Assembly: GCF_002975435.1 (NCBI RefSeq)
Contig: NZ_PCPT01000003.1
Span: 62,001 to 126,000, forward strand
Length of the DNA: 64,000 nt
Origin: Arthrobacter sp. MYb227
Lineage (GTDB): Bacteria > Actinomycetota > Actinomycetes > Actinomycetales > Micrococcaceae
Reading direction: 5' to 3'
Notes under the pieces: generated by a model
Told to the model about the DNA's origin: nothing
Databases searched by the model: none
The model's input: only the letters and a program-made list of their open reading frames with translations
Made by a program: the position numbers and the translations under genes
Shown here: piece by piece, positions 14,221-46,972 of the stretch
Layout of the letters: each line of letters starts with the position of its first letter
Position numbering within the stretch: position 1 is the first letter of the stretch

Positions 14221-14930
14221 GCCCTGATCGCCCCACTACGTACTTGTGCTCGGTATTCATTAACAGCTAGTGCTGCCGGTCCATCAAAAATAACCTGCCC
14301 GTTGGCTACTAAGAGCCCACGTTCGGCCTGCGCGGCGAATTCCAGATCGTGAGTCGCGTAGATGACCTGCTGCGGCAGTGCGGCGATGGTGTGTTGCAGC
14401 AACTGATTATTAGCAAGATCTAAGAGTGTCGTTGGTTCATCGGCAACGAGAATATTCTGTCCCGCCGCTAGCACACTGCAGAGAGCCACTAGTTGGCGTT
14501 CGCCACCGGAAAGATCATAGATGCTACGCATTGCCAGGTGTTCAAGGTTCAGCTTGGCCAAGGCGCTCAGTGCGGCTAGGCGACGCTGGGTTCTATCTTT
14601 GATGCTTGCTTTAAGGGAAAGTTCAACGTCTTCCACAACTATCGGCATGACCAGCTGGGAGAGGGGATCGGTGAAGAGGAATCCAACATTTTGTCGTACG
14701 GCCTTGATCTTGGTCTTGGTGTCATCTCCGCGCACGCGTACACTGCCGTTGCTGGGTGCCACCAGCCCGTTGATCATGCGCAACAATGTTGATTTGCCCG
14801 AACCGTTGGCGCCGATGACTGCTATACGTGATTCGCTAAGTTCCAAGCTGGTTGGAGCAAGGACTACGTGTGCGGGAGCCTGCGGCTCATCGGCCTGAAC
14901 CGAGAATCCAGCATTATCAAAGTGAATCAC
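14217..14930 (-). CDS. bioM: Biotin ECF transporter ATP-binding protein BioM
   Basis: This 237-residue ATPase has Walker A GANGSGKST, Q-loop VGFLFTDPLSQLVMP, signature LSGGERQLVALC and Walker B ILVADEPTTLLDL. The Q-loop with its following hydrophobic segment is of the ECF type. Only one ATPase is present, as expected for dedicated BioMNY systems. It lies 39 bases after bioY and overlaps bioN. Confidence 0.94.
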   Translation of the reverse strand: MIHFDNAGFSVQADEPQAPAHVVLAPTSLELSESRIAVIGANGSGKSTLLRMINGLVAPSNGSVRVRGDDTKTKIKAVRQNVGFLFTDPLSQLVMPIVVEDVELSLKASIKDRTQRRLAALSALAKLNLEHLAMRSIYDLSGGERQLVALCSVLAAGQNILVADEPTTLLDLANNQLLQHTIAALPQQVIYATHDLEFAAQAERGLLVANGQVIFDGPAALAVNEYRAQVRSGAIRA

Positions 14931-14969
14931 TGTCGTAGTAGTCCTTGCTCGTTGAGATGAAGAGAGAGG

Positions 14970-15593
14970 TTAGGCGCCGAAGTTACGACGAGCCATATGT
15001 GGGAAGGCCTTGAAGACACTCACTGCAATGCTTGCAGCGATAAAGTTCTTCACTAGGTCACCTGGCCAGTAGGCCATATCCAAGATGAATGCTTTCTCCA
15101 GCGGAATTCCTGCGTTCAGAGACATTCCCAAGATACCCATGGGGTGTACTACTAGGATGGAGCCGCCCATGGCTGCCAGCCAGAGCCATACCAAGCGGTG
15201 TTTGGTGACCTTGCGCAGTACCAGGGTTGCTAGTGCGCCGGTGACAAGTGCGGCAATGGGGAAGGAAAGCAGGTAGCCGGCGCTGGGGGCTGCCAAGGAA
15301 CCGAGACCACCAGAGAATTTCGCAAAGATGGGGACGCCTGCAAGTCCAACGACAACGTAGAGCAATGCTGCCGAACCACCACGTGCCGAACCTAGGATCA
15401 GTGCGGTAAGAGCAACGCCAAGAGTCTGCAGGGTAATGGGGACGCCGAGTGCACCAACAGGTACCGCGGGAATAAGAGTGAGCACTGCAATGAGTGCCGC
15501 GAATACCGCGACAAGGGCTAAATCGCGGGCGCCAACTCGTTGGGTCTTGCGTACGGCGCCGGTAATTTGGCTGTTTTGCATGGTCTTAGTCAT
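14970..15593 (-). CDS. bioY: Biotin transporter substrate-specific component BioY
   Basis: The 207-residue protein has six membrane segments and the BioY signature of GVPITLQTLGVALTALILG followed by GGSAALLYVVVGLAGVPIF, and then the GYLLSFPIAA segment. It binds biotin in the membrane. The ATG at 15593 was chosen because the open frame's 32 upstream codons cover the promoter and operator region. Two BioQ-like boxes lie 69-103 bases upstream, so biotin-dependent repression is likely. Confidence 0.95.
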   Translation of the reverse strand: MTKTMQNSQITGAVRKTQRVGARDLALVAVFAALIAVLTLIPAVPVGALGVPITLQTLGVALTALILGSARGGSAALLYVVVGLAGVPIFAKFSGGLGSLAAPSAGYLLSFPIAALVTGALATLVLRKVTKHRLVWLWLAAMGGSILVVHPMGILGMSLNAGIPLEKAFILDMAYWPGDLVKNFIAASIAVSVFKAFPHMARRNFGA

Positions 15594-15661
15594 TGGAGGT
15601 TCCCTGTGTGATGATCGTCTGGTTTCAAGGCTACGCGTGATTGCGTATGAAACGAGAATAC

Positions 15662-15676
15662 TTGAACACCGTTCAA
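15662..15676 (-). promoter_or_regulatory. BioQ-like operator box 1 upstream of bioY
   Basis: TTGAACACCGTTCAA is a perfect palindrome around three central bases. It matches the TGAAC-N3-GTTAC-type box described for the TetR regulator BioQ of corynebacteria. It sits just upstream of a possible -10 (TATTCT on the minus strand). Confidence 0.65.
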
Positions 15677-15681
15677 AAGTC

Positions 15682-15696
15682 TTGATCACTGTTCAA
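15682..15696 (-). promoter_or_regulatory. BioQ-like operator box 2 upstream of bioY
   Basis: TTGATCACTGTTCAA is a near-copy of box 1 with its centre exactly 20 bases away, on the same DNA face. One half-site is imperfect. Confidence 0.6.
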
Positions 15697-15732
15697 GTCT
15701 TGTCATATCACCGGTAAGAGTATGGCGAGAAA

Positions 15733-16767
15733 TCAGCGTTTTGACTGGGCTGGAACCACAACTTTTTTGAGAATTAACAAGATCGCGGCACTGGCTGGGC
15801 AGGCGACCAGCGCGCCTAGGAGCCCGGCGAGCGTGCCGCCAACCATAGCACCAATGAGCACCATCGACCCCGGGATCTGTATTGCCTTTCCGACGATGCG
15901 TGGGGTTAGTACGTAGGCTTCAATCTGCATGTAGGCGACCATGACGATCCCGACGATCAGCCCAGAGGTAGGAGCGGCAATAAGCGCGATTGTCGTGACG
16001 ATGACTGTGCTGATGACCGAACCAACAAGCGGAATCATGGTGATCGGTAGTGCAAGAATCCCCAGGACCGCTGCGAAAGGTACGTTCATGATGGTCAACA
16101 GAATAAAAGTAAATAGAGCATTCATTGTTGCAAGAATCGACATGCCGCTAAGATAACTGCCGACTGAAGAGGCGATCTCTTCGGAAATTTCCGTTACTTT
16201 CTCACGTTTTGAAGCCGGAACTAGAAGGTAAAAGGACTGTTTCATCTGATCCAGTGAGATCACAAAATACATGGTCAGTACCGTGACAAATAGCGTTCCA
16301 ACAACGGTGTTTGCTACTCCGAGGCCAACTTTAAGTGCGCCGTTTCCGACGAAAAGCCAGGTCGAGGGATCGGCAATGGTTTTCTGAACCCATTCAAGGC
16401 CCGGGATGAGTGCGCCATCGAGTGTTGCATTAAGCGAGATGAACCATGCTTGTTCCTCGACTCGATCAAGGCTTGCCGGCAGCGAGATGAGAAGCTTGTG
16501 CCCCTCGGTGACCAGTAGCGGAATAACCAGACTGAAGACTAGGACCGCAAAAATCAGGAAACCGGCAAGTACGCAGAGCACGGCCTTGACTCGACTTAGT
16601 CCCCAGCGCTCAAGTTTGCGTACTAGGGGGTCAAGGCCGAGTGCGATGAAAAACGAGGCAAACACCAACGTGATGGCGTATGTGAGCGACATGATTGCTG
16701 CACCAAGTGCCAGCGCCGTCAGTGCTCCCAGCGTTGCGACAAAGCCACCGCGGAATGTGAGTTTCAT
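15733..16767 (-). CDS. AI-2E family transporter
   Basis: This 344-residue membrane protein shows the family layout. There are two N-terminal helices with the FASFFIALGLDPLVRKLERWG segment, a long middle helix pair, and a C-terminal block with LPITMIPLVGSVISTVIV and QIEAYVLTPRIVGKAIQIPG. The latter is strongly conserved in AI-2 exporter-like proteins. Members have varied roles, including Na+/H+ exchange and signal export, so the substrate is open. It stands alone and is divergent from soxR. Confidence 0.9.
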   Translation of the reverse strand: MKLTFRGGFVATLGALTALALGAAIMSLTYAITLVFASFFIALGLDPLVRKLERWGLSRVKAVLCVLAGFLIFAVLVFSLVIPLLVTEGHKLLISLPASLDRVEEQAWFISLNATLDGALIPGLEWVQKTIADPSTWLFVGNGALKVGLGVANTVVGTLFVTVLTMYFVISLDQMKQSFYLLVPASKREKVTEISEEIASSVGSYLSGMSILATMNALFTFILLTIMNVPFAAVLGILALPITMIPLVGSVISTVIVTTIALIAAPTSGLIVGIVMVAYMQIEAYVLTPRIVGKAIQIPGSMVLIGAMVGGTLAGLLGALVACPASAAILLILKKVVVPAQSKR

Positions 16768-34887: not shown

Positions 34888-35460
34888 TTACACGCTTGGT
34901 GGAGTATCCGAAGCGTTAATGAGCGAGTGTGCTGCGCGGTCAAAATAATCCCACAGCGTGGTTTCCAGCATGGGTGCCAATTCAAGTGAATCGACAGCGA
35001 CGCGCATGTGCTTGAGCCACACATCGCGGTTATGTGAATTGATGACGTATGGATGGTGGCGCATGCGCAAGCGCGGGTGTCCACGGCGCTCCGAATAGGT
35101 TTTGGGACCGCCCCAATACTGTTCCAGGAAAAGCTGCAAGCGCATGGCTGCCGGACGTAGATCCTGTTCCGGGTACATGGCACGGAACTCTAGGTCTTTG
35201 GCGACCGACTCGTAGAAGTTGTTTGCCAGCTTGGCGAAGGTTTCGCGCCCGCCGATCTGCGCATAAAAAGTGCCTTCGTAATCAGCTGGATTGTGATCAT
35301 CGTTGGGGGAGAGCTTGCCTTCGGGAAGCGTGCTGCTCAGCGAAGCACCCACCGGTCTGAGTTCTCCCACTGGTTCGCCAAAGCGTGAGCTGCTGGGCAA
35401 CAATACTGGCTTAGGCATCTGGCTTGCTTCCGGCTGGTTCTCGTTCACGATCTTGCTCAA
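34888..35460 (-). CDS. glbO: Group II truncated haemoglobin (trHbO)
   Basis: The globin domain begins near residue 62 (GTFYAQIGGRETFAKLANNFY). It has the MYPEQDLRPA turn, LFLEQYWGGPKTYSERRGHPRLRMRHHPY with the proximal His, and a final WDYFDRAAHSLIN helix. The Trp in the last helix and YWGGP are trHbO marks. At 190 residues it carries a Pro-rich N-terminal extension of about 60 residues with no recognised domain. An internal methionine start is possible. A role in oxygen or nitric oxide handling is expected. Confidence 0.93.
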   Translation of the reverse strand: MSKIVNENQPEASQMPKPVLLPSSSRFGEPVGELRPVGASLSSTLPEGKLSPNDDHNPADYEGTFYAQIGGRETFAKLANNFYESVAKDLEFRAMYPEQDLRPAAMRLQLFLEQYWGGPKTYSERRGHPRLRMRHHPYVINSHNRDVWLKHMRVAVDSLELAPMLETTLWDYFDRAAHSLINASDTPPSV

Positions 35461-35779
35461 GGTCCTTTCAATGACCGGGATCTTCCGGTATTACTACGTC
35501 GATTATGCCCGAATCCGGACCAGACGGCCTAACCTTTCGCGAAGGGCGTCGCCGTGCTGCCGGAAAGTCATCAAGAGCAATCATAAATTCTTGCATATGG
35601 CAGGCAACTTTGCCGCATACCGGCACCGAGCCGTTTGGCCACGTTGGCCGAGCGGGGCCGACCCCCCCCGGCCAGAGATGGGACTGTCTTCTTGGCCTGG
35701 CTTGATGGTCGGCGCGCTGGGCTACCCTGTATGGTGTGCGATCAAATCAAACACGCTGTGTCGAATCTCACAAAAACCC
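35461..35779. other. Gene-free stretch before the catabolic operon
   Basis: I see no gene here. It holds the promoter region of the globin gene on the left and a run of eight C near 35665. The promoter of the FAD oxidase operon begins at its right edge. Confidence 0.45.
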
Positions 35780-35808
35780 TTGACGACCCGCTGTGGTCAG
35801 GTTAGTGT
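35780..35808 (+). promoter_or_regulatory. Promoter of the catabolic enzyme operon
   Basis: TTGACG (35780-35785) and TAGTGT (35803-35808) are 17 bases apart. The geometry and the following operator match the promoter at 41398. Confidence 0.65.
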
Positions 35809-35810
35809 TC

Positions 35811-35835
35811 ATACTTGTATACAGATATGGATACA
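35811..35835 (+). promoter_or_regulatory. 25-bp operator, copy 1 (probable GntR site)
   Basis: The site reads ATACTTGTATACA, then GATATG, then GATACA, and matches the site at 41431-41455 at 23 of 25 positions. It contains the palindrome TGTATACA and a partial inverse, GGATACA. It starts 2 bases after the -10, so binding would block transcription start. The GntR gene at 40659 is the likely owner. Confidence 0.75.
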
Positions 35836-35886
35836 CGCTTGAACATAAGCTCAAAGCGTTGGTGAAAGACCAATCGAGGAGTGTCG

Positions 35887-37371
35887 ATGGGAAATCTAGA
35901 CGTCGGGAACAGGGTCAGCGGCTCAACGTTTCTGCAGGGCCATGTCCAGCGCGAACTGGAAATGGCAATCGGTTCCAAATTCGTCTCACTGGAGCCACGA
36001 GAATTACAGGAGCAGGCGTCTGACTGGTCATGGATGTCGAAGTATCTGCAGTACAAAAACCTAGGAGTCCCGGCGGCAGACTTCATTGTTCGACCGGCCA
36101 ACACGTCCGAAGTCCAAGCGATCATGCGACTGGCTGCCGACTACAAGATTCCCGTGGTGCCACGCGGCGGTGGGACCGGTACCCAAGGTGGAACCTTTGC
36201 CCCCTACGGTGGAATCGCCATGGATTTAACCCGACTCGATGAAATTATCGACATTGACGAGACCAGCCTCGTAGCGACGGTCGGAGCGGGTATCGACGGG
36301 CCAACCTTGGAAAGCGCACTGAACGCCAAGGGTCTCACCTTGTCTCACTACCCAGGTTCCTATCATCTGGGTGCAACTATTGGCGGCTTCGTCGCAGCAC
36401 GTGGAAGCGGCGTTGTCAGTACCAAGTACGGTAAAGCCGAAGACCAGGTCCTACAGGTAGAAGTAGTCATGCCATCGGGCGAGGTGGTGACCACCATGCC
36501 AGTTCCCAGCCACGCGGCAGGCTCAGATCTACTCCAAACCTTTGTTGGTTCCGAGGGCACACTCGGTGTCATCACCCAGGTAGCAATGCGAGTAGACCGC
36601 ATCCCGGAAAACTACGGATTCCTTTCCTTTAGCTTCCCCGACATCTTCGCCGGGATCGAGGCGGGCCGGCTGATCATGACAAATCGACTGCGCCCCTCGG
36701 TAATCCGACTCTACGATGAGGCAGATTCACAAAAGCTTAAGGACTGGGTCGGCACACCCTTCACCGGCACCCTCATGGTCGTGATGTGCGATGGAAACCA
36801 GGAACTCATTGACTACGAAATGCGTTCCATCACCAAACTTGTGGAATCTGCCGGCGGCACCTCCCTAGGCCCAGACGTTGGACGGATCTGGTGGGAAGGC
36901 AAATATGAGCCCTACGCCAAGGGCAAATTGCCGCAGCCACCATTACTTTATGGAACCTTCGACACTGTTGGACGATTCGAGGCTCTGTCAAGGATTTACT
37001 CCGCTAAGAAACACGCGATTGAAACCGAATTCGCCGAATATGGTGCACGTTACACCGCACACCTCTCGCACTGGTACGACTGGGGAGCGATGATTTACGA
37101 CCGCTTCTACGTCGATAATCCGCCGGCGGATCCGGAAGAGGCAATGGCGTTGCATGACCGTCTCTGGGATGTAGGAGTGCGCGCCGGCATCGAAGCCGGA
37201 GGCATTCTCAATGATCATCACGGTGTTGGCATGAAATTGGGACGTTTCATGCGCCTACAACACGGCACCGGATTTGACCTCATGAAGTCGTTGAAAGAGG
37301 CCTGGGATCCAGACGGAATTATGAACCCGGGCAAACTTGGATTTGGTCCACCCAGCAATTCTCAGTGGTAG
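35887..37371 (+). CDS. FAD-linked oxidase/dehydrogenase (VAO/PCMH family)
   Basis: The 494-residue flavoprotein has a PCMH-type FAD domain to about residue 220 (PRGGGTGTQGGTFAPYGG, YPGSYHLGATIGG, GSEGTLGVIT). The C-terminal substrate domain includes the NDHHGVG segment and a closing WDPDGIMNPGKLGF. This resembles glycolate/D-lactate dehydrogenases and alkylglycerone-phosphate synthases, so a 2-hydroxy acid or alcohol is a reasonable substrate. The ATG at 35887 has GAGGA 6 bases before; the GTG two codons earlier leaves no room. It is first in the enzyme operon. Confidence 0.9.
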   Translation: MGNLDVGNRVSGSTFLQGHVQRELEMAIGSKFVSLEPRELQEQASDWSWMSKYLQYKNLGVPAADFIVRPANTSEVQAIMRLAADYKIPVVPRGGGTGTQGGTFAPYGGIAMDLTRLDEIIDIDETSLVATVGAGIDGPTLESALNAKGLTLSHYPGSYHLGATIGGFVAARGSGVVSTKYGKAEDQVLQVEVVMPSGEVVTTMPVPSHAAGSDLLQTFVGSEGTLGVITQVAMRVDRIPENYGFLSFSFPDIFAGIEAGRLIMTNRLRPSVIRLYDEADSQKLKDWVGTPFTGTLMVVMCDGNQELIDYEMRSITKLVESAGGTSLGPDVGRIWWEGKYEPYAKGKLPQPPLLYGTFDTVGRFEALSRIYSAKKHAIETEFAEYGARYTAHLSHWYDWGAMIYDRFYVDNPPADPEEAMALHDRLWDVGVRAGIEAGGILNDHHGVGMKLGRFMRLQHGTGFDLMKSLKEAWDPDGIMNPGKLGFGPPSNSQW

Positions 37372-37456
37372 CGCACACCAGCAAAGTTTTACACGCACGT
37401 TGTTTTAGCTTGAAGTCCGAGATTCACCTGATGCAGGAAATTCAAAGGAGAAAGCA

Positions 37457-38353
37457 ATGCACCTGTCGATGCACAATTGGATGCGATCCGAGCCGATCGA
37501 AACCACGATTGCTCGCCTAGCCAAGTACGGCTATAAGAGCATCGAGATCAGCGGAGAACCGGAACAATATGACACCAAACATGTCAAGAGCCTGCTCGGC
37601 CACTACGGCCTAGACTGCTGGGGCGCGGTCACCTTGATGGTTGACAAACGCAACATGCAATCAGACAACGAAGCAATGCGTGCTTCATCCGTGCAGTACG
37701 TCAAGGACTGCATCAACATGGTCGCCGAACTTGACGGTAAAATTCTCACGCTTGTTCCAGGCACTGTTGGCAAGATTACCCCGGATTCGACTCCGGAAAA
37801 TGAGTGGAAATGGCTCGTTGAGGGAGTCAGCGAAATTTACGAAGTCGCCGAAGCCAAAGGCGTGCGGGTGGGTATCGAACCACTAAACCGCTTCGAGTCC
37901 TACCTGATCACCCGCGCCGAGCAGGCATTAGCGCTCTGCGCGGAGGTCGGACCCAACCTTGGCGTGGTACTTGACGCCTTCCACATCAATATCGAGGAAG
38001 AAAACCCGATGGACGCCATCCGCCTGGTGGGCGACAAACTTGTCGACTTCCACGTGGCCGACAACAACCGGATGCCGGCCGGATATGGAACCTACAACTG
38101 GAGCGAGGTTGTCTCAACCCTGCAGGAGATCGGTTATGAAGGCGCACTGACCGCCGAGTTCGTCGCTCCGGTGGACAGGACTCCAGCAAATAAGTACCCC
38201 AACGCACTAGAAACTAATTTCGAGGGTCTGGATATCGACCCGGAACAGCTCAAGTTCATCATCGACCATGGTTCCTCGGTGCTCACCGAGGAGTACTACG
38301 ACTGGCTGGTGAAGGTAAACGCGGAGACACTTCTTCCACTGATCGGCAACTAA
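37457..38353 (+). CDS. Sugar isomerase/epimerase, xylose-isomerase-like TIM barrel
   Basis: The 298-residue protein has the AP-endonuclease-2/xylose-isomerase fold with metal ligands in GIEPLNRFE (Glu), VVLDAFHINIEE (Asp and His), VDFHVADNNR (His) and ALTAEF (Glu). Family members are epimerases (tagatose or psicose 3-epimerase), hydroxypyruvate isomerases or dehydratases, so the exact reaction is open. AGGAG precedes the ATG. It is second in the operon, 85 bases after the oxidase. Confidence 0.9.
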   Translation: MHLSMHNWMRSEPIETTIARLAKYGYKSIEISGEPEQYDTKHVKSLLGHYGLDCWGAVTLMVDKRNMQSDNEAMRASSVQYVKDCINMVAELDGKILTLVPGTVGKITPDSTPENEWKWLVEGVSEIYEVAEAKGVRVGIEPLNRFESYLITRAEQALALCAEVGPNLGVVLDAFHINIEEENPMDAIRLVGDKLVDFHVADNNRMPAGYGTYNWSEVVSTLQEIGYEGALTAEFVAPVDRTPANKYPNALETNFEGLDIDPEQLKFIIDHGSSVLTEEYYDWLVKVNAETLLPLIGN

Positions 38354-38405
38354 GGCACTCCCCGGAGCATTCGGGGTCGGCAACAAGGGGAAAGAGACAA
38401 GGTGT

Positions 38406-39650
38406 ATGAGTAAGACGGTTGTCATCGTGGCAACGCTCGATACCAAGGGTGTCGAGATCGCCTATCTGCGTGATGCGCTGCAGCGGCTAGGGATCGATAC
38501 CCTTGTAGTCGACTCCGGGGTTTTGGGGGAGCCGGTCGGTATCGTTCCAGACTTCAGCCATGAACAGCTGTGTCAACGGTCCGGAATCACGCTTCACGAG
38601 CTTCAAAATGCTGGCAGTCGAGGCAAAGCCGTCGCGATCATGCGCCGCCTAGTCAGCGAGCTGGTTGTGGATCTCTTCGCGGAGGGCCGGATATCCGGTG
38701 GCATCAGCGTCGGGGGAGTTGGCTCCATCATGGGCGCGGCGGCCATTCAGCAGCTGCCGCTCGGGGTCCCCAAGATCGTTGTCGCACCAACCGCCTCGGG
38801 TCATCACGAGTTCGGACCCTATGTTGGAACCAAAGATGTGATGGTAGTGCACTCCGTGGTCGACATTCTGGGACTCAACGAGATTTCAAAGACAATTTTC
38901 GACAACGTTGCCGCGGCAATGTACGGATTACTGGCCAAAGGGCATCCATTAGATCGCCCCGCACCTGGTGCCCGCTACGTCGCCACCACCATGCTGGGGA
39001 ACACCACCACCGCGGTGGGCGCCATGAAAGACCGGCTGTCGGAAGCGGGGTACGAAACCGTCGTCTTCCATTCCAATGGAGTCGGTGGTCCGGCCATGGA
39101 AGAACTGGCCGCCAGCGGTCAATTTGTCGGGGTCATCGACTACACCACCAATGAAATCGCCGACCCACTCACCGGTGGCATCCATGATGGTGGCCCCCAC
39201 CGGCTACGCACCGTGGGACTGCATGGAATCCCACAAATAGTGCTACCCGGTTGCATGGACTTTTCCGTCTTTGCCGCAGGAAACGTCCCGCGACTCCTAG
39301 GGAATCGGCCGGTATATGACCACAATCCAGAGTACACACTGGTGCGCACCCCACTGGAGGAAATGCACCAACTAGGCGAGATCTTTGCACGGCGACTCAA
39401 CGAATCAACCGGCCCCATTCGTGTGCTCATCCCCACCAGGGGGCTCTCAATTCCTTCAACACCCGATGGGCCCTTCTGGGATCCGGAAGCCGATGCGGCA
39501 TTCCTCACCGCGGTGCGCCGCGTGCTACGCCCGGATATTCCCTTGGAAACCATCGATCTACACATCAACGATCCGGAACTTGGCAGATACGTTGCCGAAC
39601 TATTCCTGCAAGTAATGACCACCGCACAAGCCCAGGAGATATGCACATGA
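38406..39650 (+). CDS. Tm-1-like ATP-binding domain protein (UPF0261)
   Basis: The 414-residue protein spans the whole UPF0261 family. It has an N-terminal VVIVATLDTKGVEIAYLRD strand-helix, a glycine-rich ISVGGVGSIMGAAAIQQLP, and TKDVMVVHSVVDILGLNEIS. The C-terminal half has TMLGNTTTAVGAMKDRL and GCMDFSVFAAG. The plant relative Tm-1 binds ATP and inhibits a viral helicase, while the bacterial role is not established. Here it overlaps the creatininase-family gene by ATGA, which ties it to catabolism. The phosphoenolpyruvate-hydrolase-like partner often seen with this family is absent. Confidence 0.9.
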   Translation: MSKTVVIVATLDTKGVEIAYLRDALQRLGIDTLVVDSGVLGEPVGIVPDFSHEQLCQRSGITLHELQNAGSRGKAVAIMRRLVSELVVDLFAEGRISGGISVGGVGSIMGAAAIQQLPLGVPKIVVAPTASGHHEFGPYVGTKDVMVVHSVVDILGLNEISKTIFDNVAAAMYGLLAKGHPLDRPAPGARYVATTMLGNTTTAVGAMKDRLSEAGYETVVFHSNGVGGPAMEELAASGQFVGVIDYTTNEIADPLTGGIHDGGPHRLRTVGLHGIPQIVLPGCMDFSVFAAGNVPRLLGNRPVYDHNPEYTLVRTPLEEMHQLGEIFARRLNESTGPIRVLIPTRGLSIPSTPDGPFWDPEADAAFLTAVRRVLRPDIPLETIDLHINDPELGRYVAELFLQVMTTAQAQEICT

Positions 39651-40579
39651 CCAGCAAACCAGCAGCCGACCGTCCCGAGCGCGTGATCAACCGCCTCACC
39701 GAGGGTGATGAGGAGTTCCGGGAAAAGTTCGTTTCCTGGAACCTCGCGCACTTGTCCTATGTGGATATTCGGGAGTACCTCAAGACCAAGGACACGGTGC
39801 TGGTACCCATCGCTAGCACCGAACAACACGGACCGCACCTACCGCTCTACACAGATACGATTACCGCGGTGGAAATTTCCGAACGAATCTCCGAGTCGAT
39901 TGGGGTGCTGCACACACCGCCGATCTGGACCGGATACTCACCTCAGCACATGTATGGCCCCGGTGAGGGCCGCGGTACCATCACGGTGCGTTCCAGTACC
40001 CTACTGGCACTCATGAATGACATCGCACGCTCACTGATCCACCACGGCTTCAACCGGATCATCTTCATCAATGGTCATGGGTCAAATATCAAGGTAGTAG
40101 ACCCGGTATTGCGCAAGCTACGCTACGAAACCGGTGCGCTCATCTCCTTCGTCAAGCCCTATATGGAACGCTACGAAGGAATTTTAGCCGGATTGATGGA
40201 GAATCCTCCGGAGGAAACCCCCGGCTGGCACTCCTCGGAACTTGAAACATCACAGGATCTGGCCTGGAATCCAGATCTGGTGCGTATGGAACGGGCCGTT
40301 GACACCCGGGCTCACACCCCGGAGTTCCTGCCCGGTGCCTTTAGCAAGGACGACGGCATGCCGGACACCGAATTTGAGGGTTACCAGTACTTCAGCTTCC
40401 CCATGGATCATCATGAGTTCGTGGACAACGGTATTATTGGCAACCCGATGCGGGCCACCGCGGAAAAGGGCCATGAGGCATTCCGTCGGCTCAGCGAGCA
40501 CGTGGCGCGCGGCGTCATGGAACTGGAAAAGGTGCCGGTGACTGTGCATACTCGTGAGTTCATCGACCGCGTGATGTAA
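39647..40579 (+). CDS. Creatininase family amidohydrolase
   Basis: The 310-residue protein has the family's metal sites: ASTEQHGPHLPLYTDTI (Glu, His, Asp), FINGHGSNIKV, and later GWHSSELETS (His, Glu). The family includes creatininase, mycofactocin MftE and formamide hydrolases, all acting on C-N bonds, often in rings. The N terminus has an extra 35 or so residues. The ATG at 39647 overlaps the previous stop and has AGGAG 8 bases before. It is last in the enzyme operon. Confidence 0.92.
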   Translation: MTSKPAADRPERVINRLTEGDEEFREKFVSWNLAHLSYVDIREYLKTKDTVLVPIASTEQHGPHLPLYTDTITAVEISERISESIGVLHTPPIWTGYSPQHMYGPGEGRGTITVRSSTLLALMNDIARSLIHHGFNRIIFINGHGSNIKVVDPVLRKLRYETGALISFVKPYMERYEGILAGLMENPPEETPGWHSSELETSQDLAWNPDLVRMERAVDTRAHTPEFLPGAFSKDDGMPDTEFEGYQYFSFPMDHHEFVDNGIIGNPMRATAEKGHEAFRRLSEHVARGVMELEKVPVTVHTREFIDRVM

Positions 40580-40658
40580 AAGGCGTAAGGGGGGCGCCAA
40601 CGGTGAGCCATCGCAGTCGGTAACATTAGTAAACAAGCTCGAGAGAAGGAAGTTAGCC

Positions 40659-41321
40659 ATGGCTGAGACTGGAACACGCGTTGATGACGCGTACACATTC
40701 CTACTTGCTGAAATTACCGGCTTTCGGCTCCGCTCCGGTGCGCCGCTTTCCGAGAACCGAATTGCTGCACAAATCGGAATCTCTCGAACACCGGTTCGAG
40801 AAGCCCTGCAGCGTTTAGAGAAGGAGGGGCTGGTGAAGCGCGGCGATAATGCGCGCTTCACCGTCTCCCAGCTCACGCGCTCCGAGGTCAACGATTCCTG
40901 CGACTTGCTTGAGGTTCTCGATACCTACATCTGCCGCAAGGCCGGTGAGAAGCTCACCGAACAAAGCGCGGCGCTGTTGACGGCTTCGGTCGACACCATG
41001 ACTCAGGCAGCCATTTCTGAGGATCGGGCATCTTGGGCGGAGGCCGACGCGGCATTCCACCGGCTGATCAATGAGATTGCTGGCAACGTTCTGGTGGCGG
41101 ATACCGTGAAGGAAACTCGCCGGCGCATCCAGCGTTTTTGGTTACGTGCGGCAAGTGCCCAGCATCGTCTGGAGGAATGCTCAAACGAGCATCAGGTGCT
41201 GGCCAGGGCCATGATCGAAAAGGACTACGCAGCCATTGAACCGGCGGTCAAGGTCCATATCGGGCACATGCGTGGTCGGATGCTGGACATGATCGACGCG
41301 GCAGAAGCGCTGCTCGGCTAA
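40659..41321 (+). CDS. GntR family regulator, FCD (FadR-like) subgroup
   Basis: This 220-residue repressor has an N-terminal winged helix (IAAQIGISRTPVREALQRLE near residues 33-52) and an all-helical FCD effector domain. The latter includes WAEADAAFHRLINEIAGN and late histidines that usually bind a metal and a carboxylate. It lies between the enzyme and transporter operons. Each of those begins with the same 25-bp site, so it likely represses both. No copy of the site lies before its own start. Confidence 0.93.
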   Translation: MAETGTRVDDAYTFLLAEITGFRLRSGAPLSENRIAAQIGISRTPVREALQRLEKEGLVKRGDNARFTVSQLTRSEVNDSCDLLEVLDTYICRKAGEKLTEQSAALLTASVDTMTQAAISEDRASWAEADAAFHRLINEIAGNVLVADTVKETRRRIQRFWLRAASAQHRLEECSNEHQVLARAMIEKDYAAIEPAVKVHIGHMRGRMLDMIDAAEALLG

Positions 41322-41397
41322 ATATTCTCAGGGTGCGCTTGCTCACCTAGTTTCACTCTGCACCACATCATCCCCTTCGATGGTGCGGTGAAATCCA

Positions 41398-41426
41398 TTG
41401 ACACCCATGTTTGGTGACCATATGGT
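41398..41426 (+). promoter_or_regulatory. Promoter of the ABC importer operon
   Basis: TTGACA (41398-41403) and TATGGT (41421-41426) are 17 bases apart, a near-consensus promoter. The operator follows 4 bases later. Confidence 0.7.
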
Positions 41427-41430
41427 GTCA

Positions 41431-41455
41431 ATACTTGTATACACATAAGGATACA
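41431..41455 (+). promoter_or_regulatory. 25-bp operator, copy 2 (probable GntR site)
   Basis: The site reads ATACTTGTATACA, then CATAAG, then GATACA. It differs from the site at 35811 at only two positions and sits at nearly the same distance from the -10. Confidence 0.75.
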
Positions 41456-41508
41456 AACATGTGTCCAAGCATGAATTTCAATATTCGAAGCGATGTAAGG
41501 CAGGTGAA

Positions 41509-42372
41509 ATGACTCAGTTCCTCTTGATCACGTTCAACGGTTTAACACTGGGCGCCGTCTATTTTCTTGTGGCATCCGGACTAACTTTGATCTTTGGTCT
41601 GATGCGAGTCATCACGATGGCTCATGGAACCAGCTACCTGCTGGGCGGATACATCGGATACGTGGTGGTCCGCGAAACCGGGAACTGGATCCTTGGCGCA
41701 CTGGCTGCATCGGTGGGCGTAGGGTTGCTCGGGCTACTTATTCACCAGCTGCTGATCCGCAAATTCCAAGATGATGACATGCGCGTTGCTCTCATTACCC
41801 TCGGTCTCTCGCTGATCGGTACCGACCTCATGCTCGCCGCGTTCGGTGGCACCGCAACCCAGGTAGCAATCCCCAAGGCGCTACAGATCGGCGTGGAGCT
41901 ACCATTGCTTGGCACCTACCCACTGATCAGAATCCTGCTACTTCTCATCGCCATTGGCGTCGGTTTTGGGCTGTGGTTCTTCGTGAACAAAACGCGCTAC
42001 GGCGCTGTTGTCAGAGCCGGCGTCGATGACAGCCAAATGACCGCGGCCACCGGTATCAACATCAAGGTCGTCTTCGCCGCGATCTTCGCGTTCGGCTCGG
42101 CGTTGGCCGGCTTTGCCGGTGTTGCCGGCGGCTCACTCTTCCCACTCATGCCGGGACAAGACGGTACCTACCTGCTCTTCTCGCTCGTGGTGGTGATCGC
42201 CGGTGGCATGGGATCAATCGCTGGTGCAGCAATAGGTGCAGGGCTCGTTGGTCTCGTCTCCCAATTTTCGCTTGTCTATTTTCCAACCTACGCATTGGTC
42301 TTCACCTTCGCCCTCATGGTGATCGTGCTGGCGGTTCGCCCGCAGGGCCTCATGGGGAAGGCAACCGTATGA
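41509..42372 (+). CDS. livH: Branched-chain-type ABC transporter permease (LivH family)
   Basis: The 287-residue membrane protein has about eight helices and the LivH hallmarks: NGLTLGAVYFLVASGLTLIFG at the start, GLMRVITMAHG, and the cytoplasmic EAA-like RAGVDDSQMTAATGIN loop near residue 180. The ATG at 41509 begins the family sequence; the 16 upstream in-frame codons are leader. It overlaps the LivM gene by ATGA. Given the neighbouring enzymes, the cargo is probably not a branched-chain amino acid. Confidence 0.93.
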   Translation: MTQFLLITFNGLTLGAVYFLVASGLTLIFGLMRVITMAHGTSYLLGGYIGYVVVRETGNWILGALAASVGVGLLGLLIHQLLIRKFQDDDMRVALITLGLSLIGTDLMLAAFGGTATQVAIPKALQIGVELPLLGTYPLIRILLLLIAIGVGFGLWFFVNKTRYGAVVRAGVDDSQMTAATGINIKVVFAAIFAFGSALAGFAGVAGGSLFPLMPGQDGTYLLFSLVVVIAGGMGSIAGAAIGAGLVGLVSQFSLVYFPTYALVFTFALMVIVLAVRPQGLMGKATV

Positions 42373-43463
42373 GTACCGACCAAACCACGAGTATGCGGCG
42401 CAAGCCACGCCTGGGCGCTGTGCTCTGGCTGGCATTCCTCATCTTCGCCTTCGCCTTCCCCTACCTCGTGGATCGACCAAAATTCTGGATCCCAAATATT
42501 GGTATCAAGAGCATCTGGCTTGGCGTCGTTGCCATGTCACTGGTGTTCCTGAATCGATACGTTGGCCTGCTATCGCTAGCCCAGATGACCATCGCGGGCA
42601 TCTCCGCTTATGGGGCCGGATTCGTAATCGTCAAGATGGATGGGCCCATCATGATGGCGATCCCTATCGGCCTGTTGGTTGGAACCCTCGCCGGATTCCT
42701 CATTGCGTTAGTTGCCGTTCGTACCAAGGCAATCTACTTCCTAATGATCACCTTGGCCATCGGTCAAGTGGTTTACTCCTTCGCGTCGCAATCCATCGAG
42801 GTGACAAACGCCCGCCGCGGACTAGCGCCGATCAAGCGCGAAGACGTAGGATTCATGCACTTCACCGAATTACATATTTTCTATTATGTGGCGCTGATTG
42901 TCGCAATTGGCTGCTATGTTCTCTGCCGTTATATCGCAGCTACGTCCTTCGGGTTGGCTCTGCAGGGAATCAAAGATTCTCCCGAGCGTATGAGCGCACT
43001 GGGCTACAACGTAAACCGTTACCGTATAGCCGCGATGACCTTTAGCTCATTCATCGCATCGGTAGGCGGCATCATTATGGTCTTCGACCGGGCCCAAGTC
43101 GATCCGGATGTGGTCGCGCTCCCGGCGACTCTGGACATCTTGATCGTGGCGGTAGTCGGCGGTATCGGGTCGCTCTCCGGAGTCTTCTTCGGAGCACTGG
43201 TGCTGACCCTGCTCGATAACTTCTCCCAAAATCTCACCGAGCGCTATATGACACTCACGGGATTGGTATTCATCGCCGTGCTGCTATTCGCCCCGGCAGG
43301 ACTAGCCGGAATCGGAAAACAGCTCAGCGCATTATTCGCCAGACTCAAAGGTCCGACGATTCAGGACGCCGCGGAAGCGGATCCTCCACAAACATCACCG
43401 GCAGCGACTGCGGAGGATGCCCAGGAAACACAAGATGAACTCTCGAAAGGAAGTCAGCGATGA
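42369..43463 (+). CDS. livM: Branched-chain-type ABC transporter permease (LivM family)
   Basis: This 364-residue permease has nine or so helices, with the LivM-type RYVGLLSLAQMTIAGISAYGAG segment. The LALQGIKDSPERMSALGYNVNRYRI loop contacts the ATPases. The hydrophilic C-terminal tail of about 40 residues is rich in Ala, Glu and Thr. Overlaps of 4 bases at both ends show tight coupling with livH and the binding-protein gene. Confidence 0.93.
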   Translation: MSTDQTTSMRRKPRLGAVLWLAFLIFAFAFPYLVDRPKFWIPNIGIKSIWLGVVAMSLVFLNRYVGLLSLAQMTIAGISAYGAGFVIVKMDGPIMMAIPIGLLVGTLAGFLIALVAVRTKAIYFLMITLAIGQVVYSFASQSIEVTNARRGLAPIKREDVGFMHFTELHIFYYVALIVAIGCYVLCRYIAATSFGLALQGIKDSPERMSALGYNVNRYRIAAMTFSSFIASVGGIIMVFDRAQVDPDVVALPATLDILIVAVVGGIGSLSGVFFGALVLTLLDNFSQNLTERYMTLTGLVFIAVLLFAPAGLAGIGKQLSALFARLKGPTIQDAAEADPPQTSPAATAEDAQETQDELSKGSQR

Positions 43464-44749
43464 AGCTGAATAAGGGAAAGAATCGAATTGCCGCACTTGC
43501 CATGGGTTTCAGCCTGGCACTTGTTGCAACGGGTTGTGCGCCTGCTGGTAGTGGGGAAGCAGCCCCCGGCAGTAGCTCCGCAGGAGCTGCCTCAAGCGAC
43601 ACCATCAAGATCGGCGTACTTTCAACCTCCGAAGGCAACCTAGCCTTCGGCATGGATGAAGCCAAGGCAGCCATCGGAGTCGCGATGGAAGCTCGCGGTG
43701 GCACAGTTGAGGGTGGCACCATAGCTGGTAAGAAAGTGGAACTAATCTACGAAGGCACCGACGGCACCAGCGCTTCGGCCCAGACCAAGGCCAAGAAACT
43801 CGTCGAAAATGAAGGAGTAGATATCGTCTTTGGCCCGGCCTCCGGCGATGAAGGCGAAACCGTTGTCCAATATGCACTCACCGAACCCGACGTCACCTTC
43901 GTCAATGGTGCGGCCAGCCCGGTGGGCATGACCTTGCAGAACGCCGAAAATTTCTTCCGCTTTATGGGCGATTCGGCGATGTGGATGGGTGGCCTAGGAG
44001 ACCATGCCTTCAAGGAAAAGGGCTACAAAAAAGTTTATTCAATTGCCGAAGATTACTCCTTCCCCTATGACAACGCGGGTGGTTTCTTCAGTGAATTCTG
44101 TGCGGCCGGTGGAGAAGTAACTGGTAACTCGTGGGTACCTGTGGGAACCACGGATTACGCAACCATCATCTCCAAGATCCCGGCAGATACCGATGCGGTT
44201 TACGTCGGACTGGGTGGTGCCGATGCCGCTAGCTTCTTGTCACAGGCAGTCACCGCCGGGGTCGAAAAGCCGCTGATCGGCGGTTCCATCACCGTTGATA
44301 CCACGGCGCTTTCCGGAGACGCGAATATTTCCGACGCCGCAGTTGGAACCATCACCGGAGGACCAGTCCCTGGCGCAGATTACGACAATCCAGTATGGAA
44401 GACGTTCTCCGAGGCCTACGCCAAGCAACCCAAAGCGTTCCCAAGCCCATCGATCTTCGGCATTCTCTACTACAACGCCTTTGAATCCCTGTTGTTGGGT
44501 ATCGAAGAAACCAAGGGCGAACTCGGTGAGAAGCATGCGGACCTGCGCGCTTCACTGAGCAACCTGAAATGGGATACCCCCACCGGACCGATTTCCATGG
44601 ATAAGAATCGCCAAGCAATTGTCGATAATTTCCTGATCGAGGTCGTAGACGACAGCAGCGGTGAGCTCACCCAGAAGAACCTGAGCAAATCTTCCAACGT
44701 CACCCAAGGCACCACGGTGTACGACCGCTTCGACGGCTGCCCAAACTAA
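43460..44749 (+). CDS. ABC transporter substrate-binding lipoprotein (Peripla_BP_6 type)
   Basis: The 429-residue protein has a lipoprotein signal ending at C26 (LVATGC), a Ser/Ala-rich linker, and a two-lobed binding fold. It begins KIGVLSTSEGNLAFGMDE and has VDIVFGPASGDEGETVVQYA and SIAEDYSFPYDNAGGF. It is of the amide/branched-chain amino-acid binding group. It selects the substrate for the importer. The ligand cannot be read from sequence, but amides, ureas and carboxylates are all known in this group. Confidence 0.92.
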   Translation: MKLNKGKNRIAALAMGFSLALVATGCAPAGSGEAAPGSSSAGAASSDTIKIGVLSTSEGNLAFGMDEAKAAIGVAMEARGGTVEGGTIAGKKVELIYEGTDGTSASAQTKAKKLVENEGVDIVFGPASGDEGETVVQYALTEPDVTFVNGAASPVGMTLQNAENFFRFMGDSAMWMGGLGDHAFKEKGYKKVYSIAEDYSFPYDNAGGFFSEFCAAGGEVTGNSWVPVGTTDYATIISKIPADTDAVYVGLGGADAASFLSQAVTAGVEKPLIGGSITVDTTALSGDANISDAAVGTITGGPVPGADYDNPVWKTFSEAYAKQPKAFPSPSIFGILYYNAFESLLLGIEETKGELGEKHADLRASLSNLKWDTPTGPISMDKNRQAIVDNFLIEVVDDSSGELTQKNLSKSSNVTQGTTVYDRFDGCPN

Positions 44750-44771
44750 GCACGAGAAAGGACTAACGATC

Positions 44772-45554
44772 ATGCGTCAATCGTCATTAGCTCTGAATGT
44801 CACGGGACTATCCAAAAGTTTCGGGGGGCTCCATGCCATGAAAAGTATGGATCTACAGATTCAGGACGGTGAGCGAATCAGCATGATCGGCACCAACGGC
44901 GCGGGCAAGTCCACATTCTTCAATCTTTTGGCAGGAGTATTTCCGGCAACAACCGGACGCATCGAACTCTTTGGAGAAGACGTTACAACTCTCTCCACTG
45001 CCAAACGAGCGAAGAAAGGACTTGCCCGCACCTTCCAAACATCGAGCCTTTTCGAACAACTCACCGCCGCCGAAAATGTCTTTATTGCCCTAGGCGGCGT
45101 TGAATTCAACGGTGCGTCACTGCGGCTGGCTCTTCCCAGTTCCAAAAACATCTTGGTTGAGAACCGCTGGAGTCGAGTCGAACGATTACTTGAACGGGTT
45201 GCGCTGGGTGATCAAGGCTCAACCATGGTGGCAAATCTTTCCCACGGTGAGCAACGACAACTTGAGCTCGCCATGGCCCTAGCTCTACAACCAAAACTCT
45301 TGATGCTCGATGAGCCAGCTGCGGGATTCTCCCCGGCCGAGCGCGCCCACTTGGTCAAAATACTTCGCGAGCTCCCACAAGAAATCACGTTGTTGCTGAT
45401 CGAACATGACATGGATATTGCCCTGGCCACCGCCAACAGGGTGGTCGTCATGCACGACGGGGAAAAAATCTTAGAAGGCTCACCACAAGAAGTAAGATCT
45501 TCGGCACGCGTACGTGAAATCTATTTGGGAGGATCCCTTGACGATGTCGCCTAA
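44772..45554 (+). CDS. livG: ABC transporter ATP-binding protein (LivG family)
   Basis: The 260-residue ATPase has Walker A GTNGAGKST, signature LSHGEQRQLELAMA and Walker B LLMLDEPAAGFSP. LSHGEQ and DEPAAGxxP are LivG marks. The ATG follows GAAAGGAC. Its end overlaps the LivF gene by 11 bases. Confidence 0.94.
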   Translation: MRQSSLALNVTGLSKSFGGLHAMKSMDLQIQDGERISMIGTNGAGKSTFFNLLAGVFPATTGRIELFGEDVTTLSTAKRAKKGLARTFQTSSLFEQLTAAENVFIALGGVEFNGASLRLALPSSKNILVENRWSRVERLLERVALGDQGSTMVANLSHGEQRQLELAMALALQPKLLMLDEPAAGFSPAERAHLVKILRELPQEITLLLIEHDMDIALATANRVVVMHDGEKILEGSPQEVRSSARVREIYLGGSLDDVA

Positions 45555-46248
45555 CCCACTATTTGAGGTCAAAGACCTCAACGTTTCATACGGGCGCGTA
45601 CACGTATTACAGGATGTAAATCTCGCCATGGGTATTGAACCCTTGGGACTTGTCGGGCGCAACGGCATGGGTAAGACGACGCTAGTGAACGCGATCGCCG
45701 GAATGGTTCCAGCGCAATCTGGAACCATTGAATTTGAGGGAGGAAACATTGCCAATAAGGAACCGCACCAGGTGTGCCGTGCCGGGATTGGGTACGTACC
45801 GCAAGGTCGGAGAATCTTCCCATCGCTGACGGTAGATGAGCACTTCACCATGATCAAAACCAAACGAGATGCGCGCTGGAAAAAACAGGATATATATGAC
45901 CTATTCCCACGTCTGGCGGAACGTAAGAAGAATGGTGGTGGGGCCCTATCCGGTGGCGAACAACAGATGCTGGCCATCGGACGCGCGTTATTGACTAATC
46001 CACGGCTGATTGTCATGGACGAACCTTCTGAGGGGCTGGCGCCAGCGATTGTTGATCATTTGGCCAACGTTTTTCGCACGCTCGTCTCCGAGGGGCAGGC
46101 AGTGCTCTTGGTGGAGCAAAACCTAAGATTCGCTACGGAGCTCTGTGACCGGATTTTGGTGATGGTCAACGGACAGATTGCTGTCGACATGACCTCGGAT
46201 GAATTGGTGTCAAGCCCAGAAACTCAATCCAAATATCTCGGGTTGTAA
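45544..46248 (+). CDS. livF: ABC transporter ATP-binding protein (LivF family)
   Basis: This 234-residue ATPase has Walker A GRNGMGKTT, the family's GIGYVPQGRRIFPSLTVDEH, signature LSGGEQQMLAIGRAL and Walker B LIVMDEPSEGLAP. The ATG at 45544 was chosen, and a TTG two codons earlier has better spacing to GGGAGG. It closes the importer operon. Confidence 0.94.
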   Translation: MSPNPLFEVKDLNVSYGRVHVLQDVNLAMGIEPLGLVGRNGMGKTTLVNAIAGMVPAQSGTIEFEGGNIANKEPHQVCRAGIGYVPQGRRIFPSLTVDEHFTMIKTKRDARWKKQDIYDLFPRLAERKKNGGGALSGGEQQMLAIGRALLTNPRLIVMDEPSEGLAPAIVDHLANVFRTLVSEGQAVLLVEQNLRFATELCDRILVMVNGQIAVDMTSDELVSSPETQSKYLGL

Positions 46249-46297
46249 GAACACTGGGGGAAATGATGATCTCCCGATTATGTGCCGTGACGGTTTC

Positions 46298-46972
46298 CTA
46301 GAGCAGCCGTTTGATTGCTTCACGGTAGGACAGATTGCTCATATTTTCCCTATATCTGTTTACCCATTCAAGCACCCAGAGTGGGTCGGTCTTGCCATAC
46401 TGGCGCAACGACCATCCAAGGGCCTTGCGAATAAAGAACTCTTGGTCACCAAGGTTGGCTTCCAGTGCATAGTTCAGAAGCTCTGTATTAGTTTTAGCCC
46501 CAGCATGTAGCTGCGCAATCATTGACATACGACGTTTCCACATGAACTCGTCGGTAGCCCACGCACGCAATAGCGGTTCCATGATTTCCGGGTGGGCCAG
46601 TAATAGTTCACCAAAACGACGTGCGCATCCATCAACAATGTCCCACCACGCTCCCTCAAGAATCATCCGCTCATAGAGTGGCAAAAATTCCAGGCGTCCT
46701 TTGACCAGCCGATGGGCGCACAATTCTCCGGCCGCATACCAATGCTCGCGGTGTGTGGCAGCGGAGAACAACTCGGTGGCAGCATCCAGACGAGCCTGTG
46801 CGCTATTGAGCTCAAGTTCGGTGGCCAATTCCTTGGTCACCTTGCGAACCTGTGGGGCGCGGACCCCCAAGAACGGCTGCGTGGTTTTCATGTAGGCCTG
46901 TTGGACTTCGGCGCGGCCCGGCTCAACATACGGCAAGAGAGCTTCTGTAAGTGCCTCAACGATGCTAGTCAT
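46298..46972 (-). CDS. DNA alkylation repair protein (AlkD-like)
   Basis: The 224-residue all-helical protein is built of HEAT-like repeats. It carries the family motifs FLGVRAPQVRKV near residue 34, HREHWYAAGEL near 75, and AWWDIVDGCARRFG near 110, whose Asp and Trp lie in the active cleft of AlkD. FMWKRRMSMIAQL and FFIRKALGWSLRQYGK also fit. It removes alkylated bases such as 3- and 7-alkylpurines without base flipping. It stands alone, ending against the importer operon. Confidence 0.92.
   Translation of the reverse strand: MTSIVEALTEALLPYVEPGRAEVQQAYMKTTQPFLGVRAPQVRKVTKELATELELNSAQARLDAATELFSAATHREHWYAAGELCAHRLVKGRLEFLPLYERMILEGAWWDIVDGCARRFGELLLAHPEIMEPLLRAWATDEFMWKRRMSMIAQLHAGAKTNTELLNYALEANLGDQEFFIRKALGWSLRQYGKTDPLWVLEWVNRYRENMSNLSYREAIKRLL

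Follow-up and report, generated by a model that had tools for sequence, protein, structure and literature searches.

What does a bacterium do with a flavin adenine dinucleotide (FAD)-linked oxidase, a TIM-barrel isomerase, a relative of the plant protein Tm-1 and a creatininase-family hydrolase, all encoded beside a complete importer? The question is raised by a locus of Arthrobacter sp. MYb227 at positions 35887-46248 of the window, the whole stretch of 64,000 nucleotides from contig NZ_PCPT01000003.1 that was analysed. We propose, with a confidence that falls slightly short of even, that its ten genes form a horizontally acquired, locally controlled regulon that takes up and degrades a small polyhydroxylated carboxylate. 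The module was not found described in print in a limited term search of the literature.

The gene content of the module was established directly. All ten genes lie on the + strand and each is above a Pfam cut-off; every protein named in the initial annotation is present among them, above the cut-off of its family. The four enzyme genes encode an FAD-linked oxidase or dehydrogenase (35887..37371; FAD_binding_4 and FAD-oxidase_C), a TIM-barrel epimerase (37457..38353; AP_endonuc_2), a UPF0261 or Tm-1-like protein that we propose to be a small-molecule kinase (38406..39650; UPF0261 N and C domains) and a creatininase-family metal hydrolase of a separate clade (39641..40579; Creatininase). For the oxidase, 35887 is a better start than the GTG at 35881, with GAGGAG lying five bases 5' of 35887. 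The UPF0261 and hydrolase genes overlap by 10 bp at 39641-39650, and by 4 bp at loci L005, L006, L008-L010 and L018. These genes are followed by one for a GntR regulator with an FCD domain (40659..41321), and then by the importer, which comprises the BPD_transp_2 permeases LivH (41461..42372, with the ATG at 41509 as the likelier start) and LivM (42369..43463), a Peripla_BP_6 substrate-binding lipoprotein (43460..44749) and two ABC_tran ATPases, LivG-like (44772..45554) and LivF-like (45514..46248), which were assigned by Pfam and NCBI models. None of the ten proteins reaches an NCBI equivalog cut-off among the models listed (for the ATPases, the best 25 of about 190 families), and the importer subunits fall below the LivH, LivM, LivG, LivF and Urt cut-offs among the models shown. 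The UPF0261 protein is above the cut-off of an NCBI subfamily model, which is titled 'hypothetical protein'.

Conservation of the four-gene core is equally direct. When a genome collection was scanned with the UPF0261 protein, 22 loci were retrieved, 18 of them at 56-74% identity and four at 39-41%; the four distant loci do not carry the module. The order FAD oxidase, TIM barrel, UPF0261, hydrolase is kept in all 18 further full loci, of which 17 come from the scan and one, L055, from a genome of L012's phylum outside it. L014 was left out of this count because its contig begins at UPF0261, and the hydrolase gene of L020 runs into masked bases. Full core loci span Actinomycetota, Chloroflexota and Deinococcota. 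The hydrolase is the best conserved member of the core, with 73-93% identity in the 18 scanned loci and 62% in L055. The initial annotation had tied UPF0261 to a creatininase-family gene and had called for a comparison of gene neighbourhoods; the tie holds in these 18 of 18 other full loci and in a second module type described below, and no full locus belonging to this UPF0261 clade was found to have the enzymes unlinked. Outside the actinobacteria, four loci have the flavoenzyme (L011, L012, L020 and L055), and in each of them its gene is directly followed by one for an Fe-S protein. L017-L019 have another, divergent Liv system, with LutB-like genes downstream. Several neighbouring genes were also noted. 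Antitoxin- or toxin-antitoxin-like genes, recognised by eye, lie between UPF0261 and the hydrolase in the Chloroflexota loci L012 (11300-11900, HigA-like) and L014 (1400-2574, Phd- and VapC-like). Xylose isomerase-like genes, in some cases with xylulokinase-like genes, lie near the module in L009, L012, L016 and L011/L059 (two phyla). L006 (249-3330) and L021 have flanking KduD-like, 2,4-didehydro-3-deoxy-L-rhamnonate-hydrolase-like and FMN lactate-dehydrogenase-like genes, which are reminiscent of non-phosphorylating deoxysugar-acid pathways.

The module is a real insertion that was acquired as one block, since the globin and AlkD-like genes on its two sides directly adjoin each other in all 10 congeners fetched (of 14), where the genes further out on either side are shared as well. 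Relative to the empty site of congener locus L066, the left homology stops near 35452 and the right homology resumes near 46302, which defines an extra segment (35453..46301, unstranded) of about 10.8 kb. All 15 genomes of the genus have the right-hand neighbour gene. The initial annotation had suggested a single catabolic module with its own importer, inserted between globin and pepN; the conserved core and the empty congener site support both the module and the insertion, and globin is indeed the left neighbour, while on the right an AlkD-like DNA-alkylation-repair gene and then an OsmC-like gene come before pepN, which is third. UPF0261 is single-copy in the host genome and occurs in none of the 14 other members of the genus; 2 of 295 genomes of the family carry it, including this one, and the other copy is 41% identical. 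In a tree of the joined core proteins the module is sister to Agreia (support 100/100, 83% identity), among Microbacteriaceae. Host PepN is 80-84% identical to that of three congeners, 64% to that of the Agreia genome and 59-62% to those of six other Microbacteriaceae module genomes asked. This difference between the core-protein tree and the host phylogeny, for which PepN is the one marker gene, fits a transfer from the direction of Microbacteriaceae. Base composition is uninformative (55.6% versus 57.1 and 56.8%) and does not separate the segment, so that a foreign origin read from composition was dropped. No integrase was seen among the ten genes and no direct repeat pairing the two junctions was found; the closest tRNA genes are 11 kb away on the left side and 9.9 kb away on the right.

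The initial annotation had guessed that the enzymes and the importer are co-regulated, and this is now supported by a 22-bp site that both operons have in front of them. A repeat search found a 31-nt near-repeat 5' of the oxidase gene and 5' of livH, and its 22-bp core, CTTGTATACA-N5-GGATACA, has two matches in the window and none in 100 shuffles. Repeat and pattern searches place the two copies on the + strand at 35814..35835, before the enzyme operon, and at 41434..41455, before livH. The latter sits just downstream of a promoter-like pair, TTGACA-N17-TATGGT (41398..41426, +, 10/12 match in the promoter scan), which is a usual position for a repressor. The scan found 4 matches versus 6.5 expected, a number not above chance. 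It did not report the promoter-like TTGACG-N17-TAGTGT of the enzyme operon (35780..35808, +), which was read directly and has a weak -10. The related pattern TTGTATACA-N6-GATACA has 17 sites in eight module genomes, all inside module loci, with none in two congeners lacking the module, and the reversed pattern has none in ten genomes. It should be mentioned that the pattern was derived from the module sites; the news is that the genomes searched have it nowhere outside the module. When TGTATAC or GTATACA within 200 bp was accepted as a site, a less strict rule, 11 of 18 loci with upstream sequence had one 5' of the oxidase gene, including weaker variants in L016, L017 and L021 (L015 was left out, its sequence being cut off), and 12 of 15 had one 5' of livH. 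The arrangement looks like one closed regulon, in which the GntR protein would bind the 22-bp operator and repress both operons.

At eight loci a levoglucosan-dehydrogenase-like Gfo/Idh protein and a 2-hydroxy-3-keto-glucal-hydratase-like TIM barrel are encoded between the regulator and livH, divergent from livH and with an operator common to both. The Gfo/Idh protein scores 345 of 650 bits, below the cut-off of the levoglucosan dehydrogenase model. This pair was considered as an essential part of the system and rejected, as the window island lacks both genes and their homologues elsewhere in the genome lack the operator.

What the enzymes may do was examined through their active sites, in alignments of 17 of 27 matches for the hydrolase, 12 of 22 for the TIM barrel, 12 of 21 for the flavoenzyme and 24 of 42 for UPF0261. 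The hydrolase is below the cut-off of creatininase (TIGR04448, 130.6 of 235 bits, its best NCBI model), of the 3-dehydro-scyllo-inosose hydrolase IolN (NF041098, 108.9 of 245, second best) and of MftE (TIGR03964, 100.6 of 172); its best solved relative is creatininase, at 79 bits. The residues that we take to be the creatininase metal ligands, E34, H36, D45 and H120, are kept as E61, H63, D72 and H146 and are invariant in the 17 hydrolases aligned; W174 and H178 are likewise present, as W196 and H197. Two other positions of creatininase, E122 and W154, presumably functionally important, are replaced by S148 (invariant in the same 17) and Y178. The hydrolase marks a creatininase-family clade without an assigned reaction, 62-93% identical to the window copy in three phyla. 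The TIM barrel keeps E141, D173, H176, H199, R205 and E234, which match solved ketose 3-epimerases, where we take these residues to have metal and catalytic roles, and which are invariant in the 12 sequences aligned; it is below the cut-offs of IolO (NF041099, 135 of 300 bits) and psicose epimerase (NF051856, 133 of 300). The flavoenzyme has alkyl-dihydroxyacetone-phosphate (alkyl-DHAP) synthase 2uuu as its best PDB match (166 bits). Its R276, Y406, H446 and H447 (numbered from GTG 35881), invariant in 12 sequences aligned, correspond to R419, Y578, H616 and H617, presumably the active site of that synthase. It is also below the cut-off of the glycolate oxidase GlcD (TIGR00387, 175 of 568 bits), and has HHG in place of EHG, which we take to be the motif of GlcD-type enzymes; a distant paralogue in L018 has EHG. 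A redox role is suggested for the flavoenzyme because of the Fe-S partner gene and because a dehydrogenase takes its place in the second module type.

The UPF0261 protein exceeds the Pfam gathering score of 27 by a wide margin (PF06792, 154 bits; PF23189, 231 bits). Its AlphaFold2 model, with a predicted local distance difference test score of 88.7, has Tm-1 and PDB 9mpy as top structural matches, and aligns with Tm-1 structures at template modelling scores of 0.66-0.77 across the full domain. PDB 9mpy is Saro_1862, a UPF0261 domain protein of Novosphingobium aromaticivorans with bound acetovanillone. Across 24 UPF0261 proteins, 57 alignment columns do not vary; 9mpy is identical in 40 of these and in 93 of 334 other columns. 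According to a 2026 paper (PMC13101465), which refers to Hall et al. 2025, a single-component kinase named MarK initiates the catabolism of acetovanillone in this species. MarK is probably Saro_1862, and because we take it to be so, UPF0261 proteins would be small-molecule kinases, including the one in this module. The statement of the initial annotation that UPF0261 has no settled role in bacteria is probably out of date, given a structure with acetovanillone and an acetovanillone kinase from the same species. UPF0261 occurs in many bacteria, haloarchaea and plants, with a tested function for almost none, and the present module offers a compact, single-copy and self-regulated setting for testing its role. 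Elsewhere, UPF0261 stands beside a phosphoenolpyruvate (PEP)-hydrolase-like gene in 6 of 7 annotated plasmid loci opened (L026-L031), Thermus being the exception. The host genome has no match to this family (PF09370), which is found in 11 of 22 genomes searched; an action of UPF0261 with such a partner was therefore rejected here, and the partner would not be needed. In L055 (2144-4260) a second UPF0261 copy with a PEP-hydrolase-like partner lies beside the module on the same contig, so that both kinds coexist. On the Thermomicrobium roseum plasmid L026 (4131-18161), UPF0261 and this partner are accompanied by a Liv importer, a putative cyclase and PPDK-type kinase parts; a xanthine-dehydrogenase gene lies further out, and the locus may encode an aromatic ketone pathway.

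A second version of the module, here called type B, was found on Thermus plasmids, in which a hydrolase 50% identical to that of the window (other plasmid matches listed are at most 35%) lies beside UPF0261, a class II aldolase, a zinc alcohol dehydrogenase, a TIM barrel, a GntR regulator and a tripartite tricarboxylate transporter. On one of these plasmids UPF0261 is shortened beside a transposase. Among 297 sampled genomes of the host order, the hydrolase clade (E up to 1e-60) is present in three, the host and two of type B, which carry the hydrolase, class II aldolase, UPF0261, zinc dehydrogenase and a different kind of ABC transporter. Beyond the host order, the sampling consisted of 301 genomes of L012's phylum and the scan, which used patterns for close relatives. 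The clade occurs in three of the 301, including L012's own; the third carrier, the 3.6-kb contig L056, has UPF0261 and the hydrolase only. Type B hydrolases are 46-50% identical to the window copy. The Thermus zinc dehydrogenase reaches 245 bits to L-threonine 3-dehydrogenase and 225 (of 450) to IolM, both below the cut-off. MftE is the top model of the Thermus hydrolase (111 of 172), ahead of creatininase and IolN in that order, and the class II aldolase scores to sugar-phosphate families, below their cut-offs. The contents of the original arrangement (type A) and of type B therefore indicate that hydrolase and UPF0261 are the constant pair, while oxidant and importer change. At type B locus L053, a RidA-like gene recognised by eye (5929-6465) lies upstream of the module and a malate synthase gene (14306-15895) downstream; a glyoxylate end product would fit the latter, or its presence is chance.

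In the pathway that we propose, the substrate would be an acid of the sugar or cyclitol type, or a precursor of such an acid. The GntR protein would repress both promoters via the shared operator until released by substrate or product, and the Liv importer would take the compound up. The flavoenzyme may then convert a secondary hydroxyl to a ketone, passing electrons to an Fe-S protein or quinone, and the creatininase-family enzyme may use its metal centre to hydrolyse the ketone-activated bond, by opening of a ring, lactone or beta-diketone. The TIM barrel would epimerise the carbon adjoining the ketone, and UPF0261 would phosphorylate the product with ATP, readying it for aldol cleavage by a host aldolase here and by one encoded within the module in type B. 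We infer the order of the steps, the class of the substrate and the identity of the repressor. A broader reading, which we hold to be rather doubtful but still worth stating, is that the creatininase-family hydrolase and UPF0261 form a general 'hydrolyse and phosphorylate' unit in the catabolism of bacteria, with interchangeable oxidant, importer and aldolase, and that the virus-resistance domain of Tm-1 is ancestrally a small-molecule kinase. If this is true, an oxidised ring or lactone would be opened by the hydrolase, its product would have a dedicated kinase in UPF0261, and the interchangeable oxidants would be FAD/Fe-S or NAD/zinc.

Several points weigh against the carboxylate regulon. 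Its substrate and step order are unproven, the type A core has no known aldolase, and it is unusual for sugars to be taken up by Liv-type importers. The flavoenzyme keeps the active-site residues of alkyl-DHAP synthase, its best solved relative, in which FAD does not act as a net oxidant. Upstream of the oxidase gene the operator was not found in L011, L012, L013, L018-L020 and L055, nor upstream of livH in L017-L019, and because it is missing at these loci the regulation is not conserved with the enzymes. The window island does not have the Gfo/TIM pair, and the homologues on another host contig (74 and 54% identical) have no operator within 200 bp upstream. The identity of MarK with Saro_1862 is our own deduction, and the substrates of MarK are phenol-type ketones and not sugars.

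Other readings of the same genes have to be compared with this one. One is a cyclitol route that modifies the inositol pathway of Thermotoga: the FAD enzyme would stand in for IolM, the hydrolase would attack a diketo-inositol-like ring as IolN does, and the TIM barrel would take the part of IolO. This route suits the kinds of enzyme present but is unlikely. In its favour, IolO is the best NCBI model of the TIM barrel (135 bits, a near tie with psicose epimerase at 133), IolN the second best of the hydrolase (109 bits, after creatininase at 131), and the Thermus dehydrogenase has 225 bits to IolM. The pathway intermediates are given in PMC5931981, and an IolO-like enzyme elsewhere acts on 5-keto-L-gluconate according to PMC12632266, which would also suit this route. 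However, the scores are at most half of the cut-offs (IolN 109 of 245, IolO 135 of 300, IolM 225 of 450), the Thermus dehydrogenase scores higher to L-threonine 3-dehydrogenase than to IolM and the Thermus hydrolase higher to MftE and creatininase than to IolN, and the Liv and tricarboxylate-type importers suggest an acid rather than a neutral cyclitol. The flavoenzyme, with its 2uuu match and its four invariant active-site equivalents, could instead cleave or swap an ether or ester beside a ketone in the manner of alkyl-DHAP synthase, releasing an alcohol or acid from a keto compound. We consider this improbable in view of the Fe-S partner gene at the four non-actinobacterial flavoenzyme loci and the zinc dehydrogenase that takes the flavoenzyme's place in type B.

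Catabolism of an aromatic ketone or aromatic glycoside, with UPF0261 phosphorylating a phenolic group as MarK does and with an FAD enzyme of the vanillyl-alcohol-oxidase superfamily, is suggested by the acetovanillone held in 9mpy, by the combination of UPF0261, Liv importer and PPDK-type kinase parts in Thermomicrobium L026, and by the binding protein, which is most like 4ey3/4eyg, presumably R. palustris proteins that bind aromatic acids. None of the ten genes encodes a carboxylase, a CoA ligase or an enzyme of ring cleavage, the TIM barrel site is of the polyol-ketone epimerase type, and L026 belongs to another UPF0261 clade (42%) with a PEP-hydrolase partner that is absent from the host genome; we give this reading a low probability. 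The initial annotation had offered, as one reading, uptake of a cyclic amide and its opening by a creatininase-like amidohydrolase. Family membership, the creatininase model and the solved creatininase as best matches all point that way, and nitrogen chemistry would fit the RidA-like gene near a type B locus and an aminotransferase-like gene, seen by eye, near the module in L055 (962-2152), a genome of the Chloroflexota phylum. This proposal now appears very improbable, since the creatininase cut-off is missed (131 of 235), E122 and W154 are not kept, and most neighbours, in the part that was scanned, are sugar-type enzymes. The neighbouring enzymes indicate polyhydroxylated ketones or acids.

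We have compared the module with known systems that share parts of it. In UPF0261 and PEP-hydrolase-like (TBST) pairs, fused in plant Tm-1, the UPF0261 fold is common to both, whereas the partner here is a creatininase-family enzyme. The MarK-initiated acetovanillone catabolism of N. aromaticivorans would likewise use UPF0261 as a single-component catabolic kinase, if MarK is Saro_1862; the identity is about one third, and the module has sugar-type partners in place of carboxylase or CoA enzymes. Levoglucosan and 3-keto-glycoside pathways are approached by relatives of the module that carry a similar Gfo/Idh protein and TIM barrel under the same operator, but the pair is absent from the window island and the Gfo/Idh protein is below the levoglucosan dehydrogenase cut-off. 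The inositol operon of Thermotoga maritima, which we take to comprise IolG, IolM, IolN and IolO, is alike in its dehydrogenase, creatininase-family hydrolase and ketose-3-epimerase-like TIM barrel; type A differs in having an FAD enzyme rather than a zinc dehydrogenase, an added UPF0261 protein, another importer, and proteins below the IolN and IolO cut-offs. The acid-sugar pathways of DUF1537 kinases comprise OtnI, OtnK and OtnC. Their logic of a TIM-barrel isomerase, a dedicated kinase and a class II aldolase resembles that of type B, with the difference that the kinase family would be UPF0261 and that a creatininase-family hydrolase is added.

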